NCBI RefSeq assembly: GCF_022201045.2
Contig: NC_068560.1
Location: 35,241,001 to 35,305,000 of the forward strand
Direction: 5' to 3'
DNA from: Citrus sinensis
Taxonomy: Eukaryota > Streptophyta > Magnoliopsida > Sapindales > Rutaceae
DNA length: 64,000 bases
Shown here piece by piece: positions 16,955-48,119 of this stretch; position 1 is the stretch's first letter, and every line of letters begins with the position of its first letter. A program made the translations under genes and the position numbers. Under the pieces are notes generated by a model. That model did not search any database. It was given only the letters and a program-made list of their open reading frames with translations, and was not told where the DNA came from.

Positions 16955-17227
16955 TTAATGCTTCTTAGCACTATCGGTCTCGGCTGGTGCTTGCTTTGGC
17001 TGTGGGGAATTTTGACAGCGGTAACTGCACTCGCAGTTGTTACCATCAACACATTTCTCGCTGTAGGAGGTGCCATACTTCTTGGATAGACAGAGATCAC
17101 GGCATGAATTCTTTTGGCAGTTCTTCAGTCCGTGCCTCTCCTTGCAATAACCTTGGCTCATCCCACCTGTAACATAGGCGAGCAAAAGCATCAGCACAAG
17201 GGAACGAGCAACAATAGCCTGCGCCAT
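16955..17227 (-). CDS. Small secreted cysteine-rich, defensin-like peptide
   Basis: Single-exon frame of 90 residues from the ATG at 17227-17225. An ATG 30 bp upstream in frame would add ten polar residues before the signal and is less likely. The N-terminus MAQAIVARSLVLMLLLAYV is a signal peptide. The mature part has eight cysteines: C-x7-C-x4-C-x3-C, then C-x5-C-x-C-x3-C. The C-x3-C and C-x-C pair is the CS-alpha-beta signature of plant defensin-like proteins. The tail is Lys/Pro/Gln-rich and ends in KKH. Such peptides act outside the cell in defence or cell signalling. The target here is unknown. Most plant defensin-like genes have an intron near the signal-peptide end; this one reads through a CAG-GT site without needing it. 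Confidence 0.72.
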   Translation of the reverse strand: MAQAIVARSLVLMLLLAYVTGGMSQGYCKERHGLKNCQKNSCRDLCLSKKYGTSYSEKCVDGNNCECSYRCQNSPQPKQAPAETDSAKKH

Positions 17228-17282
17228 CTTCAAGCCTTTATTAATTAACAACCGCACTTTGCTTTATTCTCAACCCTTTTAA

Positions 17283-22925: not shown

Positions 22926-25900
22926 TTACAAACTGCATATTTCAGCTATGTCTAAGCAGGTCTTAAACTTAGCTGAGGAAACCACCTTTGTAAGCATATC
23001 AGCAGGATTGTTGCTGGTATGTATTTTTACCATCTTTACAACTCCTTTTGATATTACATTTCTTATGAAATGCAACTTAATGTCAATATGCTTGGTTTTC
23101 TCATGATGAGCTGGGTTTCTGCTCAAGTAAATGGCACTTGAGCTGTCACAGTGGATATCAACAACCTTCTGAGGTATTCCTAACTCACTGATTAAGCCTT
23201 TAAGCCATAAAGCCTCCTTGACAGCTTCTGAGGCTGCAGTACACTCAGCCTCTGTAGTTGATAAAGCCACTACATGTTGCAAGCTTGCTTTCCAGCTTAT
23301 CAGACATCCATTCAACATGAACATGTATCCAATTTGTGACCTCCTTCTGTCCAGATCTCCAGCATAATCAGAGTCAATATAACCCCATAAACCAGCTTCA
23401 TTTGTCTCTCGATTCTTTCCATACAACAACCCAAAATCCAAAGTTCCGTTCAGATATCTCAGCACCCATTTAGCTGCCTTCCAATGCTCTTTTCCAGGTG
23501 ATGCCATGTACCTGCTTATCAAGCTCAGAGCATGTGAAATATCTGGTCTTGTGAGGACCATTGCATACATCATACACCCCACTGCATTGGCATAAGGTAC
23601 TTTCGACATCTCTTGTTTTTCTTCCCTTGACGTTGGACACTGCTGGTTTGAGAGTTTGAAATGAGAGGCCAGGGGTGTTATCACTGGTTTACAGTTGTTC
23701 ATTCCAAAGGTATTAAGTACTTTTTCCAAGTACTTCTTCTGAGACAAAAACATAGTTCTTTTCCTTCTCTCTCTTGTGATTTCCATTCCTAAAAGCTTCT
23801 TGGCATGACCGAGATCCTTCATATCAAACTCAGAGTTCAACATCTGTTTTAAAGCTTCAATTTCTTCCCTCACTTTACAAGCAATCAACATATCATCCAC
23901 ATACAGTAGCAAGTATATGTGATGATCTGAATCTATTTGCTTGTAGTATACACAACAATCAAAATTACACCTTATGAATCCATGTGAAACCATGAATTCA
24001 TCAAACCTAAGATACCATTGTCTTGGGGACTGCTTCAAGCCATACAATGACTTCTTTAGCAAGCATACATGGTCAGGGTATTCAGAGCTTACAAAGCCTT
24101 CAGGTTGAGTCATTAAAATCTCCTCCTGTAGTCTCCCATGTAAGAAGACTGTTTTGACATCAAGTTGATCAAGCTCCATGTCATATACAGCTGTTAGAGC
24201 TAACAAAACTCTTATAAAAATATGTCTGACCACTGGAGAGAAGACTTCCTTAAAATCAACTCCTTCCTTCTGTGTATATCCTTTTGCTACTAACCTAGCT
24301 TTGAATCTTCTAGGCTCATCAGCTGTTAGCCCTTCTTTTACCTTGAAAATCCATTTGCACCCCACAATCCTTCTTTTCTCAGGTTTCTTAACCAATTCCC
24401 AGGTGTTGTTCTTGTACAGTGAGTCTATTTCATCTTCCATAGCCCTCTGCCACTCTGATTTATATGAACTCTTCATAGCCTCTCTGTAGCTTGTTGGTTC
24501 ATCTACATCAACCTCATGTGATGCTGCCAGTGCATATGCAATGAAGTCTGCATAACCATATCTTTGGGGAGGTCTTATCTGTCTTCTCTCTCTATCTCTG
24601 ACCAGGTGATAGTCTCTAAGTTGGGTTTGAGTGTGCTGTTGAGATTGTGGCTCAGTGTTTCCACTACTGTCATCTTCATCTTCGTCAGAATCTGCAGCTT
24701 CTTGTGATGATTTTAGATTTGGATGCTCCACCTCAAAATGTATACTCTTTGGAGTTTTAGTCTGAGGTTCAGTACCATTTTCTTGTAGCTTTTTCTTGAG
24801 CACAATTTCTTCATTAAAGATCACATCCTTGCTGATGATGCACCTTGGTGGGGATAGGTCAGTGCACCATAACTTGTAACCCTTTACACCCTCTGGATAC
24901 CCTATAAACTTCCCTTTCAGAGCTCTTGGAGATAACTTCCCTCGCTTTAAATGTGCATAAGCATCACATCCAAAAGCCTTAAGCTCTATATAGTTACCAG
25001 GTTTTCCAAACCACATTTCTAATGGTGTTTTAAAGTCAATTGCAGCAGATGGGCTAAGGTTCACCAAAAAACAGGCAGTCAGTAAGGTTTCTGCCCATAG
25101 CCCTTTAGGAAGTTGGGACTGTATCATCATGCATCTGACTTTGTCCATTAAAGTCCTATTCATCCTTTCAGCTAGGCCATTTTGCTGTGGGGTTAACCTT
25201 ACTGTTTTATGTCTTGCAATCCCCTCATTTGCCCAGAAACTGTCAAACTCTTGATTACAATACTCAAGGCCATTGTCTGTCCTTAGTTTTTTAACCATTT
25301 TCTCAGTTTGATTCTCTACCAGTGCTTTCCACTCTTTAAATTTCTCAAACACCTGATCTTTACTTTTCAGCACATACACCCACACTCTCCTAGAGTAGTC
25401 ATCTATCATGGTCATAAAATATCTGTTTTCACCCAGGGATGGAACCTGAGAAGGTCCCCATAGGTCTGAATGTGTATATTGCAAGATCTCAAAGGTTTTA
25501 TGTATAGATTTCTTGAAGCTATTCTTAGTAGATTTACCTAGGATGCATTCTTCACAGAACACTAGCTCCCCAATCTTATTATTCCCCAGAACACTCTGCT
25601 TATTAAGTTCTTTAAGACCTTTAATACTCATATGCCCAAGTCTTAAGTGCCATAGTGTAGTTTTATCTATGTCAGTGCTTTCAATGGCATTAGAGACCCC
25701 TGTTACAGACTCCCCATCTAAGACATAAACCCCATTCTTTCTAGTCCCTTTCATAACCAGTGTAGATCCATTAAGAATCTTCAACTCCCCTGATTCAAGC
25801 TTAATGCTACATCCCATTTGATCCATCATTCCTAAAGAAATCAAATTCCTTTTAAGTTCTGGAACATGTCTAACTTGTCTGATTTCTTTTATAGACCCAT

Positions 25901-26903
25901 CATGCAGCTTAAGATGAATTTTACCAACCCCAATGACTTTACACACTGAATTATTACCCATCATTACTCTTCCTCCATCAAAGTCTTGATAATTAGAAAA
26001 ATAACCCTTATATGGACTCATATGAAAGGTACAACCAGAGTCAAGAATCCACTTACCCTTTTGCATATCCTCAGTAGCAACACACACACCTGCTGACTCA
26101 TAGTCATCTTCTTCTTCTGCTGTAGCTGCATTCCCAATTCTCTCCTTATTCTTATTCTTTAAATCTAGCCAATCCTTCTTGAAATGTCCTTCCTTATGGC
26201 AATGGAAACATTTCAGGTCCTTTGGCTTGGTCTTAGGTTTGGACTGCTTCTGATTCTTTGCTGCATTCTTATTCTTTTCAAACTTCCCATTTACTGTTAA
26301 CCCAACTCCACTTTCCATACTCACAGACTTTTCTTGCAACCCTCTAGTATTTAAGGCTGCCTTTACCTCATCCAAGGACAATGTCTGCCTCCCATACATC
26401 AGGGCATCCACAAAATTAGAGTATGATTGTGGAAGTGAGCTTACCAAGAGCAGAGCTTTACTTTCATCGCTTAGGCTTTCATCGATGGTCTCCAGGGTGT
26501 CACACACTCTATTGAATTCATCGACATGATCATCAAGAGAGGATCCATCTGCCATATTTAGAGTAAACATCCTTTTCTTGATATGAAGTCTGTTGGCAAG
26601 AGACTTTGTCATATAGATGGTTTCCAGTTTTGCCCACAGATCAGCCACTGTCTTTTCTTTGGCAACTTCTCTAATAACAGAGTCTCTAAAACTCAAGATT
26701 ATTGTGCTTTTTGCCCTTTTATCTATATCTGAAGTCTGTTGAGGTGTTAGTGATGATGAAGCTTCCATTCCCTCTTTCTTGGTGACTGGTTCTAAAGCAT
26801 CTCCCAGTCCCTGAGTTATCAGTAGAGCCTCAATTTTTACTTTCCACATATTGAAGTCGTTCTTGCCTGTAAACTTCTCTAGATCAACCTTAGGGTGAGC
26901 CAT
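22926..26903 (-). CDS. Copia gag-pol polyprotein (fossil element)
   Basis: One frame of 1,325 residues. In order: gag with a zinc knuckle, aspartic protease, integrase core, reverse transcriptase and RNase H, the standard Ty1/copia layout. The frame looks whole. It belongs to the element at 22245-27565; the small plus-strand frames across it are shadows. Confidence 0.93.
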   Translation of the reverse strand: MAHPKVDLEKFTGKNDFNMWKVKIEALLITQGLGDALEPVTKKEGMEASSSLTPQQTSDIDKRAKSTIILSFRDSVIREVAKEKTVADLWAKLETIYMTKSLANRLHIKKRMFTLNMADGSSLDDHVDEFNRVCDTLETIDESLSDESKALLLVSSLPQSYSNFVDALMYGRQTLSLDEVKAALNTRGLQEKSVSMESGVGLTVNGKFEKNKNAAKNQKQSKPKTKPKDLKCFHCHKEGHFKKDWLDLKNKNKERIGNAATAEEEDDYESAGVCVATEDMQKGKWILDSGCTFHMSPYKGYFSNYQDFDGGRVMMGNNSVCKVIGVGKIHLKLHDGSIKEIRQVRHVPELKRNLISLGMMDQMGCSIKLESGELKILNGSTLVMKGTRKNGVYVLDGESVTGVSNAIESTDIDKTTLWHLRLGHMSIKGLKELNKQSVLGNNKIGELVFCEECILGKSTKNSFKKSIHKTFEILQYTHSDLWGPSQVPSLGENRYFMTMIDDYSRRVWVYVLKSKDQVFEKFKEWKALVENQTEKMVKKLRTDNGLEYCNQEFDSFWANEGIARHKTVRLTPQQNGLAERMNRTLMDKVRCMMIQSQLPKGLWAETLLTACFLVNLSPSAAIDFKTPLEMWFGKPGNYIELKAFGCDAYAHLKRGKLSPRALKGKFIGYPEGVKGYKLWCTDLSPPRCIISKDVIFNEEIVLKKKLQENGTEPQTKTPKSIHFEVEHPNLKSSQEAADSDEDEDDSSGNTEPQSQQHTQTQLRDYHLVRDRERRQIRPPQRYGYADFIAYALAASHEVDVDEPTSYREAMKSSYKSEWQRAMEDEIDSLYKNNTWELVKKPEKRRIVGCKWIFKVKEGLTADEPRRFKARLVAKGYTQKEGVDFKEVFSPVVRHIFIRVLLALTAVYDMELDQLDVKTVFLHGRLQEEILMTQPEGFVSSEYPDHVCLLKKSLYGLKQSPRQWYLRFDEFMVSHGFIRCNFDCCVYYKQIDSDHHIYLLLYVDDMLIACKVREEIEALKQMLNSEFDMKDLGHAKKLLGMEITRERRKRTMFLSQKKYLEKVLNTFGMNNCKPVITPLASHFKLSNQQCPTSREEKQEMSKVPYANAVGCMMYAMVLTRPDISHALSLISRYMASPGKEHWKAAKWVLRYLNGTLDFGLLYGKNRETNEAGLWGYIDSDYAGDLDRRRSQIGYMFMLNGCLISWKASLQHVVALSTTEAECTAASEAVKEALWLKGLISELGIPQKVVDIHCDSSSAIYLSRNPAHHEKTKHIDIKLHFIRNVISKGVVKMVKIHTSNNPADMLTKVVSSAKFKTCLDIAEICSL

Positions 26904-26928
26904 ACTAGAATCTGATTAAAGAAACCCT

Positions 26929-39964: not shown

Positions 39965-41083
39965 TCATTTATCCATCCACCATTCCAGTAGCACACAATT
40001 AAGGAATAACAGATTTGCAGCATCTCCCTCAATTCCAATCCAATAGCACATGACCAAATAACCCCCTAGCTTCTCTGGAACTTTCTTCATTATATGCCAT
40101 AAACACCACCGATGTCGAGTATTGGGAAAGACATTCTGAATTGCAACTTTCATTGCCCTGTCTTGATCTGTAATGATTCCATTAGGAGCTGAATTAGACA
40201 TGCAAGATAGCCATGTTCGAAATAACCACGTGAATGTCTCAATATCTTCGTGTGAAATCAATCCACACCCAAACAGAATAGAATGCCCATGATGATTAAC
40301 TCCTACAAATGGAGCGAACGACATATCATACTTATTTGTAAGATACGTGGTGTCAAATGTAACAACGTCTCCAAACTCCTTGTACGCTTCCCTATTCCTT
40401 GGCTCGGCCCAAAAAACATTTTTTAATCGTCCCTCATCATACACTTGCATACTAAAGTAAAACCTATTATCTTCTACTTGCATTTTCATAAAATAGTTTT
40501 GAAGAGCAGCAGCATCCCCATCTCCAAGCCGCAATCTTCTTTCTTTTTGAACATGATTTCTACAATCTCTTTCTATGAATGTCACATTTTCATGACCACC
40601 AGCCTCAATAACAAGTGATTGATAATTCTTACATAATCTGATTCCTGCTCGATCATTTACATCAAGCCTTTTTTTTGCATATGTATTGAGGCTACGATTG
40701 CACCGAAAATACTTGGATTTGGTTGGAGTTAACAGCACATGGTTGTGTTCAAGATTTAAGCTTCGAATTGTCCACTTTCCATCATCCCCTAAACCAGCTC
40801 CCAATCTAGCATTGCAGCCTGTTTTTGCATTAGGTTGGGGTTTTAAAATATTCACAGATTTGCTTCTTGTTTCACCACTTCTCCCACAAGCAAAAGTCAC
40901 ATTTCTAAGAATCCCACCACTATCCTTTCTACTAGTTCTCCTCAAAATCGGAAACCCTTTTCTTTTACCGTACTCTTTGAAGTAAATAAACAAATCAACA
41001 TCACTATCAAATGACATCCCAATTATTGGCTCATCGTTCTCCTCAAATTTCTCCAACTCTTCAACTTCGATGTCTTTTTCCAT
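39965..41083 (-). pseudogene. FAR1/MULE-type transposase, C-terminal part lost
   Basis: Frame from the ATG at 41083 (an acceptor TTTTGTAG just upstream suggests a leader intron). A FAR1 DNA-binding domain with GMSFDSDVDLFIYFKEYGKR, TFACGRSG, TGCNARL and LEHNHVLLTP is followed by the MULE transposase core: VVTFDTTYLTNKYDMSFAPF, GIITDQDRAMKVAIQNVFPN and RHRWCLWHIMKKVPEKL. The first two catalytic Asp residues are visible. After KLGGY the match ends, and the usual last third (catalytic Glu and SWIM zinc finger) is missing. The minisatellite begins there. Host FAR1-related transcription factors share this fold, but the terminal repeats around it argue for a transposon gene. Confidence 0.82.
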
Positions 41084-41499
41084 ATTATTTATTTCTACAA
41101 AATTGAAATAATTCACATTGACAAAATGAAAGTAACAAAATACAAATAATTCAGCACAACCTCACACAACTAAACTAACTAGTGATGCAAATTGTGAACA
41201 CAAATTTAATATATACCAGCAGAATTTGCAGCATACGAGATGCCTTTGATTGGAATTTAGTGATTTTTTATTTAATATATAACCCAATGTGCTTATTAAT
41301 TTTCCAATGGATGCTGATTTAATATATAAAGATTATTGCGCAATTGATACCCTTAAGATTATTGCGCAATTGATTTAATATATAAAAATTTGACTTCACA
41401 ATTGAATCTTCACACATTTGGAATTATTACAACCAAAATTGGGCATTAATTAAACCAATTACCTCCACTAATTGATTACGACGGCTACAACTATCTACA

Positions 41500-46109: not shown

Positions 46110-46306
46110 AGTAATGATATAGCTATAAATTTTTATATAATTTTTTTTTGTATAATTTGATGTGGTATGATAAGATTGGTTGAATTAAATATCACTTGGC
46201 CCACGTGATTTTTTTTATTTTATATTTTCATTCAACCAATGAATTAATGCCACGTCAATTTATAAAAAATAAATTTATACAAGAATTTGTGACTGTACTA
46301 TCACTC
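46110..46306. mobile_element. MITE with 9-bp target duplication, Mutator-like
   Basis: 197 bp with inverted ends: GAGTAATGATATAGCTATAA on the left, and on the right, read in reverse, GAGTGATAGTACAGTCACAA. Similarity extends about 45 bp. It is flanked by 9-bp repeats ATTATTATT (46101-46109 and 46307-46315). The repeat is low-complexity, so it is weaker evidence than it looks, but the GAG start and 9-bp length fit Mutator-type MITEs. Confidence 0.6.
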
Positions 46307-46576
46307 ATTATTATTTTACTAGTAAACGAGCAGGGCACATGAAAGAAAAGCAGTGGAGAGGGTAGTACTGTACTTTGCTGAATTAATATAAATATTAATT
46401 GAAAGTCAAATGGACAATATGATCAAACGAAACCACCAAACAAAAAACGCATTTAAGAAGGGAGTTAATGCTTATCAAAAAAAGAAAAAGGAAGGGAGGT
46501 AATGAAGTTGGTAACTAGGTAAGCAGGTAGTGTAGGAACACGGCTGCATAGCTATCTAGTCAACAAGAAGAAGAGA

Positions 46577-46962
46577 ATGGAGAAAAGATCATCATCGTCC
46601 TCATCAGAGGATATTGAGACTGACGGAGCACAAGCAGAAGCTGGCGCTTACAAATGGCATGCTTGCTTTTTGGTTGAAGCTGTAAAGGGTATTGTTCTCA
46701 AGTGTTTTGGTGTAATAATTAATGTCCCAGAACCGTGCTTGCCTCCTTCAGATCCACCACCATCAACTTCGGATCCCCCAACCACAACTGGTGTAAGATG
46801 ATGCCGTCTTTATATATACTACTGTACATAAATTAATAGCAGTAGGTGCAAAGATAAAACTTTTGTTTTGTGTGCACACAGCAGGGAGACGGTGCAGGAG
46901 TTAGCCTTGCAACTCCTCCGAGGCCAGGCGGAACCACGGGGCCCGGCCCTCAGATCAACTAG
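46577..46962 (+). CDS. Probable plant elicitor peptide precursor (PROPEP)
   Basis: Two exons, 46577-46792 (donor GGT-GTAAGA) and 46882-46962, giving 98 residues. The N-terminal half has KWHACFLVEAVKGIVLKCFG, an amphipathic stretch in the place and form of LQCLDQTLRAILKCLG in Arabidopsis PROPEP1. A Pro/Ser-rich linker follows. The C-terminus reads SLATPPRPGGTTGPGPQIN, close in form to Solanaceae Peps ending RPPSRPKVGSGPPPQNN and sharing the terminal Asn of the family. There is no signal peptide, as usual for PROPEPs. In the family the last 20 or so residues are released by metacaspases on damage and bind PEPR receptor kinases at the cell surface, amplifying immunity. The exon 2 acceptor is a tandem CAGCAG, so forms with and without one Gln are possible. 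The assignment is inference from short motifs. Confidence 0.65.
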
Positions 46963-48119
46963 TTGATTTAACAAGCATGAGCTGTTGATGTTGATCCGAG
47001 GTGGGGTCTTCTTAATTTTCTTTCACTGCTCATGTGCTTCTGCCTGACTGCTGCCCGTTCTTGATGAGTCTTTTATTTTATTTTTCGTGAGAGAAACAGA
47101 GTTGCAAACTTGCAATTATGCACCATATTATTAATTAATATATGCATGCATGGCCTGTAATTAATTAGAAAATATTTACGCCATACCATTGTTCTTCGGT
47201 TATATTATGTTATGTTATGTCGCATGTAATTAAATTAAATTCCTAAATAATTATATCGCTTTGTGTGTACTGTCTAATCTTTGATGGGAATTGGAAAGAA
47301 ACAACCCAAATTATATCCGTATCCGTAGGGTTGAAATTGTTGTGCCTCCAAAAATAGAATTTGATAAAATACCCACTTTTAACTCCAAAGCCGAATGATT
47401 CTATCCGGTCGAAAAGGTGGTGTTTGGCTGGGAGAATATTCTAAGAATTCCAAGTACAGTCCTCATATATGCAAATTCAACATCTGTGTCCCCGGCGTAA
47501 GTAGTTTGTACTTGTACCTATTCACATCTAACGTTTCTTCCAAATATTAACACAACCCACATGTATATTCGTTATATAATGATTCGTAATAAAGAATCAA
47601 TTATGTTTGTGGACTTGTGGTTGTGGATGGATTTTGTTCCTAAAGATACGGAGCTAGAATTAAAGACTCTTTAAACTAGTCAGAGTCAATAGGGCATCGA
47701 ACGGGAGGAGGAGGAGCAGTTCAGAGTCAATTACCAAAATAAAACAAATCCAAGGAAGATGGAGTTCACTTAAGTTTAACCTTAAGATGATTCTACTTTT
47801 CTAGACCACTCAATCAAAGGAAAGACACACAATCAAGGATTTTCTTAGGGTGCATTTGAAATTGAAGTTGAACAGCTGTAGTTTAAAAGTTATGTTGATA
47901 TAATTTTTTACTTGTATAAGGTAAAATTTATTATATCTTTAATAATTTTGTCAAAATTATTATTTACTACATATTATTAATATTTGTTTTATAGTTACTG
48001 TTTTTTTCTACAGCAACTGTAACTTAAAAGGTACAACACTTGTAAAGTTACAACACCTGAATCTTAAACATGACCTTAATTAGAATGGTGATGCTAGTGA
48101 TGAAATCAATCGAGACCTT
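46963..48119. other. Intergenic AT-rich DNA, no gene seen
   Basis: Holds the 3' UTR of the preceding gene. Nothing else recognised. Confidence 0.5.

Follow-up and report, generated by a model that had tools for sequence, protein, structure and literature searches.

Does a small gene of Citrus sinensis, lying at positions 46577–46962 of the 64,000-nucleotide stretch of DNA analysed here (the window), encode a precursor of a plant elicitor peptide (PROPEP), and, if it does, could that precursor still give rise to a working peptide (Pep)? Peptide elicitors are sought as a means to combat the diseases of Citrus. In the first-pass annotation, an N-terminal amphipathic segment of the kind that ends in KCLG was taken as a mark of a PROPEP. 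From its predicted protein and its exon layout, the window gene is very probably a homologue of PROPEPs. We give a probability of roughly 0.75 to the narrower reading, i.e., that it is a still-working, divergent second PROPEP of Citrus and a paralogue of an orthodox PROPEP (here called C7A) that is encoded in the same genome. Among the literature matches listed, there was no work dedicated to citrus PROPEPs, and either gene may already figure in the supplementary tables of the large PROPEP survey, PMC4526913.

Structure of the gene

The first-pass annotation had described a gene of two exons, lacking a signal peptide, in which an intron separates the helix part from the part bearing the peptide. 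All three elements are borne out by the predicted gene model, the features of which are as follows (window positions):

46387..46392, plus strand: possible TATA box (TATAAA), 190 bases before the ATG; consensus match only
46577..46792, plus strand: coding part of exon 1 (MEKRSS...TTTG, 72 codons); portion of the precursor outside the Pep
46646..46711, plus strand: AYKWHACFLVEAVKGIVLKCFG segment (KCFG), counterpart of the AYSLYSPCYLVEQLIKALYKCLG segment of C7A and of LKCLG in AtPROPEP1
46793..46881, plus strand: intron; 89 nt, GTAAG...ACAG, phase 0
46880..46884, plus strand: tandem (NAGNAG) acceptor
46882..46962, plus strand: exon 2, the Pep exon; 26 codons plus TAG
46891..46959, plus strand: last 23 residues, GAGVSLATPPRPGGTTGPGPQIN; classical Pep length, net charge +1, one basic residue
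46921..46923, plus strand: codon for Arg86, 13th residue from the C-terminus
46933..46959, plus strand: Pep core TTGPGPQIN, with Thr15, Gly17 and Asn23 in AtPep1 numbering

Once 46793–46881 is taken out, the frame that opens with the ATG at 46577 encodes a predicted product of 98 residues, which ends PPRPGGTTGPGPQIN and is followed directly by TAG at 46960–46962. If the intron is retained, this frame reaches a stop two codons beyond the donor, giving a product of 74 residues without the Pep. Eight GT donors occur in the interval 46700–46800, of which one, that at 46793 (GGT/GTAAGA), has the full GTAAG; other GT-AG pairs also preserve the frame of the Pep. The acceptor is a tandem one (ACAGCAG), such that exon 2 could start at 46882 or at 46885. 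Thus, a product of 97 residues (without Gln73) is as possible as one of 98. The G+C content at the three codon positions is 0.53/0.54/0.31 in exon 1 and 0.73/0.73/0.54 in exon 2, and that of the intron is 0.33. A second TATAAA lies upstream of the ATG, at 46261.

The predicted product lacks an N-terminal hydrophobic stretch: the best 10-residue Kyte–Doolittle mean for stretches starting within residues 1–16 is −0.48. The KCFG segment further along exon 1 is hydrophobic (maximum 10-residue mean 2.67). The earlier description of this segment was correct as to its presence but not as to its amphipathic character, as the hydrophobic moment of its 18-mer was matched by 2,029 of 5,000 shuffles, in comparison with 14 of 5,000 for C7A and 89 of 5,000 for AtPROPEP1.

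Profile and database searches with the window protein found little. No Pfam family was matched by hmmscan at E values up to 10, nor any NCBIfam family, and the profile comparison with PROPEP families that the first-pass annotation had proposed thus went against it; AtPROPEP1, run as a control, matched the Pfam model PF17232 (Pep1_7) with 62.6 bits and an E value of 5e-17. Since the window gene falls below the Pfam cut-off, it was kept out of PF17232 and placed beside C7A. When the whole genome (11 contigs, 299.7 Mb) was searched by a tblastn-type method, the window gene found nothing beyond its own two exons. The 11 contigs may correspond to nine chromosomes plus two contigs from organelles. 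Two chains in the PDB, both capsid constructs, were matched with E values of 0.14 and 0.26 and were set aside as chance matches. A search of the PDB with AtPep1 returned nothing.

An orthodox PROPEP in the same genome

The model PF17232 (gathering cut-off 26.2 bits) was also run against the whole genome and gave five matches, two of which were above the cut-off, both at 27.42–27.43 Mb of C7. One of these two is exon 1 of the gene on which most of the argument depends:

C7:27429404-27429019, minus strand: C7A, a PROPEP above the PF17232 cut-off

Exon 1 of C7A was detected by the Pfam model and, therefore, independently of the window gene. The Pep exon, which ends TRALRVIKRPPRPPGSSGGGGQIN followed by a stop, was found by searching the flank for Pep-type ends, downstream and on the same strand. 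The two exons join via a phase-0 intron of 104 nt to encode a protein of 93 residues, which matches PF17232 with 54 bits and an E value of 2.5e-14. C7A has the plan of the window gene, with a KCLG segment, a phase-0 intron, and a separate Pep exon, which in C7A ends PPRPPGSSGGGGQIN. The first-pass annotation had taken the final residues of the window gene to be the Pep of this species. They are not the sole candidate, as C7A bears the more orthodox Pep, and the predicted peptide of C7A, RALRVIKRPPRPPGSSGGGGQIN, is a better candidate for a first bioassay than that of the window gene.

The other match above the cut-off (C7:27423629-27423739; 31.3 bits) reads YFRLAFLKCLG and then a stop. A search with the pattern for Pep-type ends, on the same strand as far as C7:27427900, gave no Pep-like exon, and this copy is perhaps a relic, or a PROPEP consisting of the N-terminus only. 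The three matches below the cut-off (19.9–21.9 bits) were rejected, as six-frame translation of these loci showed no KC[LF]G and no [ST]xGxxxxxN-stop. Also rejected as a third PROPEP was a place on C6 that was weakly matched by the C7A protein (E 0.387) and proved to encode a secreted repeat protein:

C6:12999954-13000532: L034, predicted secreted protein of 193 residues; signal peptide apparent by eye

L034 contains four repeats of the form PP[RK]xPGSxGxPGx[VI]NPHPP, each with the SxGxxxxxN core of Peps, and does not match Pfam. With three further partial matches within about 60 kb, it forms part of a small local cluster.

Similarity to C7A and to known Peps

The window gene and C7A can be paired exon by exon: in exon 1, AYSLYSPCYLVEQLIKALYKCLG of C7A corresponds to AYKWHACFLVEAVKGIVLKCFG of the window gene, and the C-termini encoded by exon 2 share 10 of their last 15 residues. 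Both proteins have an ME[KR] start, an AY...C[FY]LVE...KC[FL]G segment, a phase-0 intron, a Pep exon of the form PPRPxGxxGxGxQIN-stop, and an Arg 13th from the end. C7A differs in that it passes the Pfam cut-off, has a segment that is amphipathic, and has five basic residues among the last 23 where the window protein has one. The local alignment score of the two proteins is 63, compared with a mean of 27.2 (sd 4.7) for shuffled sequences, and was reached by none of 5,000 shuffles; taking the exons separately, the score of exon 2 was also reached by none and that of exon 1 by 8 of 5,000. Composition-adjusted BLASTP, as a single comparison, gave an E value of 0.12. The reading as a divergent PROPEP paralogue rests on C7A, since that gene lies over the Pfam cut-off, is found in the same genome, and has the same phase-0 two-exon layout as well as the 10 shared C-terminal residues.

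Among the known Peps compared here, the window peptide shares most C-terminal residues with peach PpPep1 (Prunus persica, Rosaceae; AmyPep1a), which is EVAASSRVVRQPITTGGGGQIN (as given in the available parts of PMC8132438 and PMC5782389). Of the last 15 residues, 8 are shared with PpPep1; of the last nine, the window protein shares seven with PpPep1 (TTGGGGQIN compared with TTGPGPQIN), five with C7A, five with PpPep2 and three with AtPep1 (for the mature AtPep1 sequence, see PMC12349381). The agreement with PpPep1, together with that with C7A, supports the original reading of the gene as PROPEP-like. According to the portion of PMC5782389 used here, Ser15 of Rosaceae Peps is very occasionally swapped for another hydroxyl residue, while the conservation of Gly17 and Asn23 is complete. 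In the window Pep, the residue at position 15 is Thr, as in PpPep1, and not Ser; Gly17 and Asn23 (AtPep1 numbering, as in the part of PMC4526913 available) are both present, directly before the TAG. The two peptides also share a net charge of +1 and an Arg 13th from the end, but PpPep1 has a further Arg at position 16 from the end, which has no counterpart in the window peptide. That source further describes the Pep and the N-terminal part of Rosaceae PROPEPs as encoded by two distinct exons (PMC5782389), a feature that the predicted structure of the window gene shares with this family, the comparison with PpPep1 itself being confined to the peptide.

AtPROPEP1, of Arabidopsis, is the type member. 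Like the window gene, it is small, lacks a signal peptide, and has a KC[LF]G segment, and its Pep has Gly17, Gln21, Asn23 and a basic residue 13th from the end; unlike the window gene, it has a very basic Pep region (+6) with the Arg69 site of metacaspase 4. The similarity of the window protein to the AtPROPEP1 precursor was not significant, the score being reached by 465 of 5,000 shuffles, and by 2,322 of 5,000 for the Pep exon. The first-pass annotation had likened the C-terminus to the Peps of Solanaceae. The likeness to SlPep, compared by description, extends to the Pro-rich character and the conserved C-terminal Asn; in contrast, several conserved arginines are stressed for SlPep (in the accessible part of PMC11289955), of which no more than one is present in the window peptide. 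The C-terminus of the window Pep is close to that of Rosaceae Peps and to that of its own paralogue, C7A.

Comparison with background sequence

The resemblance was measured against two backgrounds: the window itself, translated in six frames and cut at stops into segments of at least 8 residues (4,399 segments), and 10,061 segments from 140,000 bases of the C7 flank. Among the window segments, exon 2 of the window gene was the best match to exon 2 of C7A (55, compared with 39 for the next segment and 37 for a reversed-sequence control), and exon 1 was the best match to exon 1 of C7A, by a marginal difference (40, next 37, control 37). When the C-terminal 12-mers were anchored at their ends, exon 2 was the best match to C7A, PpPep1 and PpPep2 with scores of 36, 26 and 27, the next segments scoring 19, 17 and 14; reversed controls scored 13 for C7A and 14 for PpPep1. 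In local alignment among the same segments, exon 2 ranked first for PpPep1 (33 vs 31) and second for PpPep2 (32 vs 33); exon 2 was absent from the top five for AtPep1, as was exon 1 for AtPROPEP1.

Against the C7 flank, exon 2 scored 55 vs 37, and its anchored end scored 36 vs 19 for C7A, 26 vs 17 for PpPep1 and 27 vs 21 for PpPep2. Exon 1 by itself did not rise above this background (40, the top flank segment also scoring 40), and with window exon 1 as the query, four flank segments exceeded the 40 of C7A, with scores of up to 45. The two best-matching exons in the window are in order, 89 nt apart, and compatible in phase. It is exon 2 that bears the case for a homology predicted from sequence, to which order, spacing, phase and the KC[LF]G in exon 1 lend support.

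Charge and release of the predicted Pep

Counted from the C-terminus, the window protein has basic residues at positions 96, 95, 73, 62, 57 and 13, and no others. Arg86 is, therefore, the sole basic residue among the last 56, and a Lys or Arg about 20–25 residues from the C-terminus, as in Peps of the metacaspase-released type, is absent. In the partial text of PMC13157962 used here, AtPROPEP1 is reported to be cleaved by metacaspase 4 after Arg69, and the preference of metacaspases is given as cutting after Arg or Lys. With one basic residue in the last 56, a cut of this type could not free a peptide of 20–23 residues; besides cuts further upstream, the possible products are a 56-mer and a 12-mer that would begin with Pro. 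The earlier prediction of a product of 15–23 residues does not sit well with this. In the absence of the usual cut site, release must depend on another protease, or activity must reside in the 12-mer or 56-mer fragment. For AtPep1, the minimum core with activity like that of the full peptide is the last 15 residues (from the excerpt of PMC4526913).

Over its last 23 residues, the window protein carries a net charge of +1, in comparison with +5 for C7A, +6 for AtPep1 and +1 for PpPep1. PpPep1 is reported to be active on peach leaves (PMC8132438, in the part consulted), and thus low charge by itself does not exclude activity. Position 13 from the C-terminus is basic in all four of the Peps compared (Arg in C7A, PpPep1 and PpPep2; Lys in AtPep1), so that in this set of four sequences the presence of Arg86 in the window protein looks like selective retention. 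Possibly, in this Citrus lineage the duplicate kept its receptor-facing C-terminus and Arg86 and, with its cut site and other basic residues gone, became a functional Pep off the metacaspase route; this we put forward tentatively, as the odds are against it.

Alternative explanations

The same loss of basic residues can be viewed as decay, whereby the window gene would be a homologue of C7A that has ceased to make a perceived peptide, most of its basic residues and the cut site of the Pep having been lost. The low charge relative to C7A and AtPep1 and the absent Pfam match are as expected of such a gene, and the helix-only copy near C7A, for which no Pep exon was found, suggests that the genome contains relics. 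Against this, the frame, the splice sites and the GxGxQIN-stop are intact and it is the linker that has diverged, which is the reverse of neutral decay. The explanation loses further weight because Arg86, the last basic residue left in the Pep region, coincides with a site that carries Arg or Lys in all of the Peps compared, and because PpPep1 combines the same low charge with reported activity (PMC8132438, as far as that source was available). Decay is, therefore, an unlikely explanation, though it deserves more attention than the two that follow.

It could also be argued that the resemblance to PROPEPs is superficial. A chance open reading frame, or some other small protein rich in proline and glycine, might merely look like a PROPEP: the Pro/Ser/Gly composition is of low complexity, the composition-adjusted BLASTP value is modest, and the similarity of exon 1, taken alone, is within background. 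Such a frame would hardly be expected to give an anchored C-terminal match of 36 where the next best of either set of background segments scores 19, nor to agree with C7A in the order and phase of its exons and in its KC[LF]G segment, nor to have a G+C content by codon position that departs from that of the intron, and this explanation is very improbable. Still less probable is a secreted precursor of the repeat or CEP type. It is brought to mind by the four-repeat protein on C6, whose PPRPPGSQGGPGQVN-type repeats resemble both Peps; the window protein has neither a signal peptide nor such repeats, its motif stops at the stop codon, and the C6 protein, as read, lacks KC[LF]G. The preferred reading is, thus, still that of a divergent, working paralogue of C7A.

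Proposed mechanism and significance

If the window gene is a working PROPEP, its mode of action can be pictured by analogy with known Peps. The precursor would be made in the cytosol and held at a membrane by its hydrophobic KCFG segment, and damage to the cell would lead to the precursor being freed or cut. Once exposed, the C-terminal core with its final Asn could then bind the ectodomain of a PEPR receptor kinase, and the bound core could recruit a co-receptor of the BAK1/SERK class, amplifying pattern-triggered immunity. The role of the product as a wound or immune signal is inferred in the same way.

C7A and the window gene, one orthodox and the other odd, offer a pair of candidate Peps that can be tested directly, and their comparison asks whether a Pep can work with few basic residues and no metacaspase site. 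Should the tentative route away from metacaspase be correct, Citrus would have a near-neutral Pep, rich in Pro and Gly, that either depends on another protease for its release or is active as a long fragment or as a 12-mer. As an alarm, it would be triggered differently from the orthodox Pep of C7A. More generally, a divergent PROPEP can be missed by a curated profile, and such a gene can be revealed by a paralogue together with exon layout.

Surroundings and other loci

Within 1 kb upstream there are two W-boxes for the window gene and none for C7A; this is no enrichment for the window gene, as an equal number is reached in 99 of the 253 bins of a sliding 1-kb scan. Gene order was compared between open segments of at least 30 residues from the window and the 140 kb of C7 flank plus two 9.9-kb C7A loci. 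The 30 matches were judged by eye to be transposons and short repeats; beyond such elements, the window has no gene order in common with the C7 region and, thus, nothing points to a recent segmental duplication. Short repeats at 46184–46339 and 47813–47938, which recur in the C7 flank, lie on either side of the window gene. They are possible MITEs, and one lies less than 400 bases upstream of the ATG. The region of about 48.1–50.4 kb of the window matches a reverse-transcriptase element in the C7 flank (RVT_1 by Pfam). Other features of the window are:

16955..17263, minus strand: small protein rich in Cys, apparently secreted (YCKERHGLKNCQKNSCRDLC...)
22926..26915, minus strand: Copia-type polyprotein (type by eye), uninterrupted frame of 1,329 residues
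31881..35911, minus strand: LRR receptor kinase of several exons, kinase domain by Pfam; about 11 kb from the PROPEP
39965..41161, minus strand: reading frame with FAR1/MULE transposase domain; relatives in the C7 flank

The LRR receptor kinase is presumably SERK/BAK1-like, i.e., of the class of PEPR co-receptors, and its proximity was given no weight. The Cys-rich protein had no Pfam match at E values up to 0.001 and is perhaps another unannotated signalling or defence peptide. Elsewhere in the genome, a search with a Citrus (+)-limonene synthase, the sequence of which matches PDB 5uv0_A over 607 of 607 residues, pointed to Citrus or a very close relative: it matched C5:9424147-9427023 in six pieces, five with 93–99% identity and one with 82% and an internal stop.
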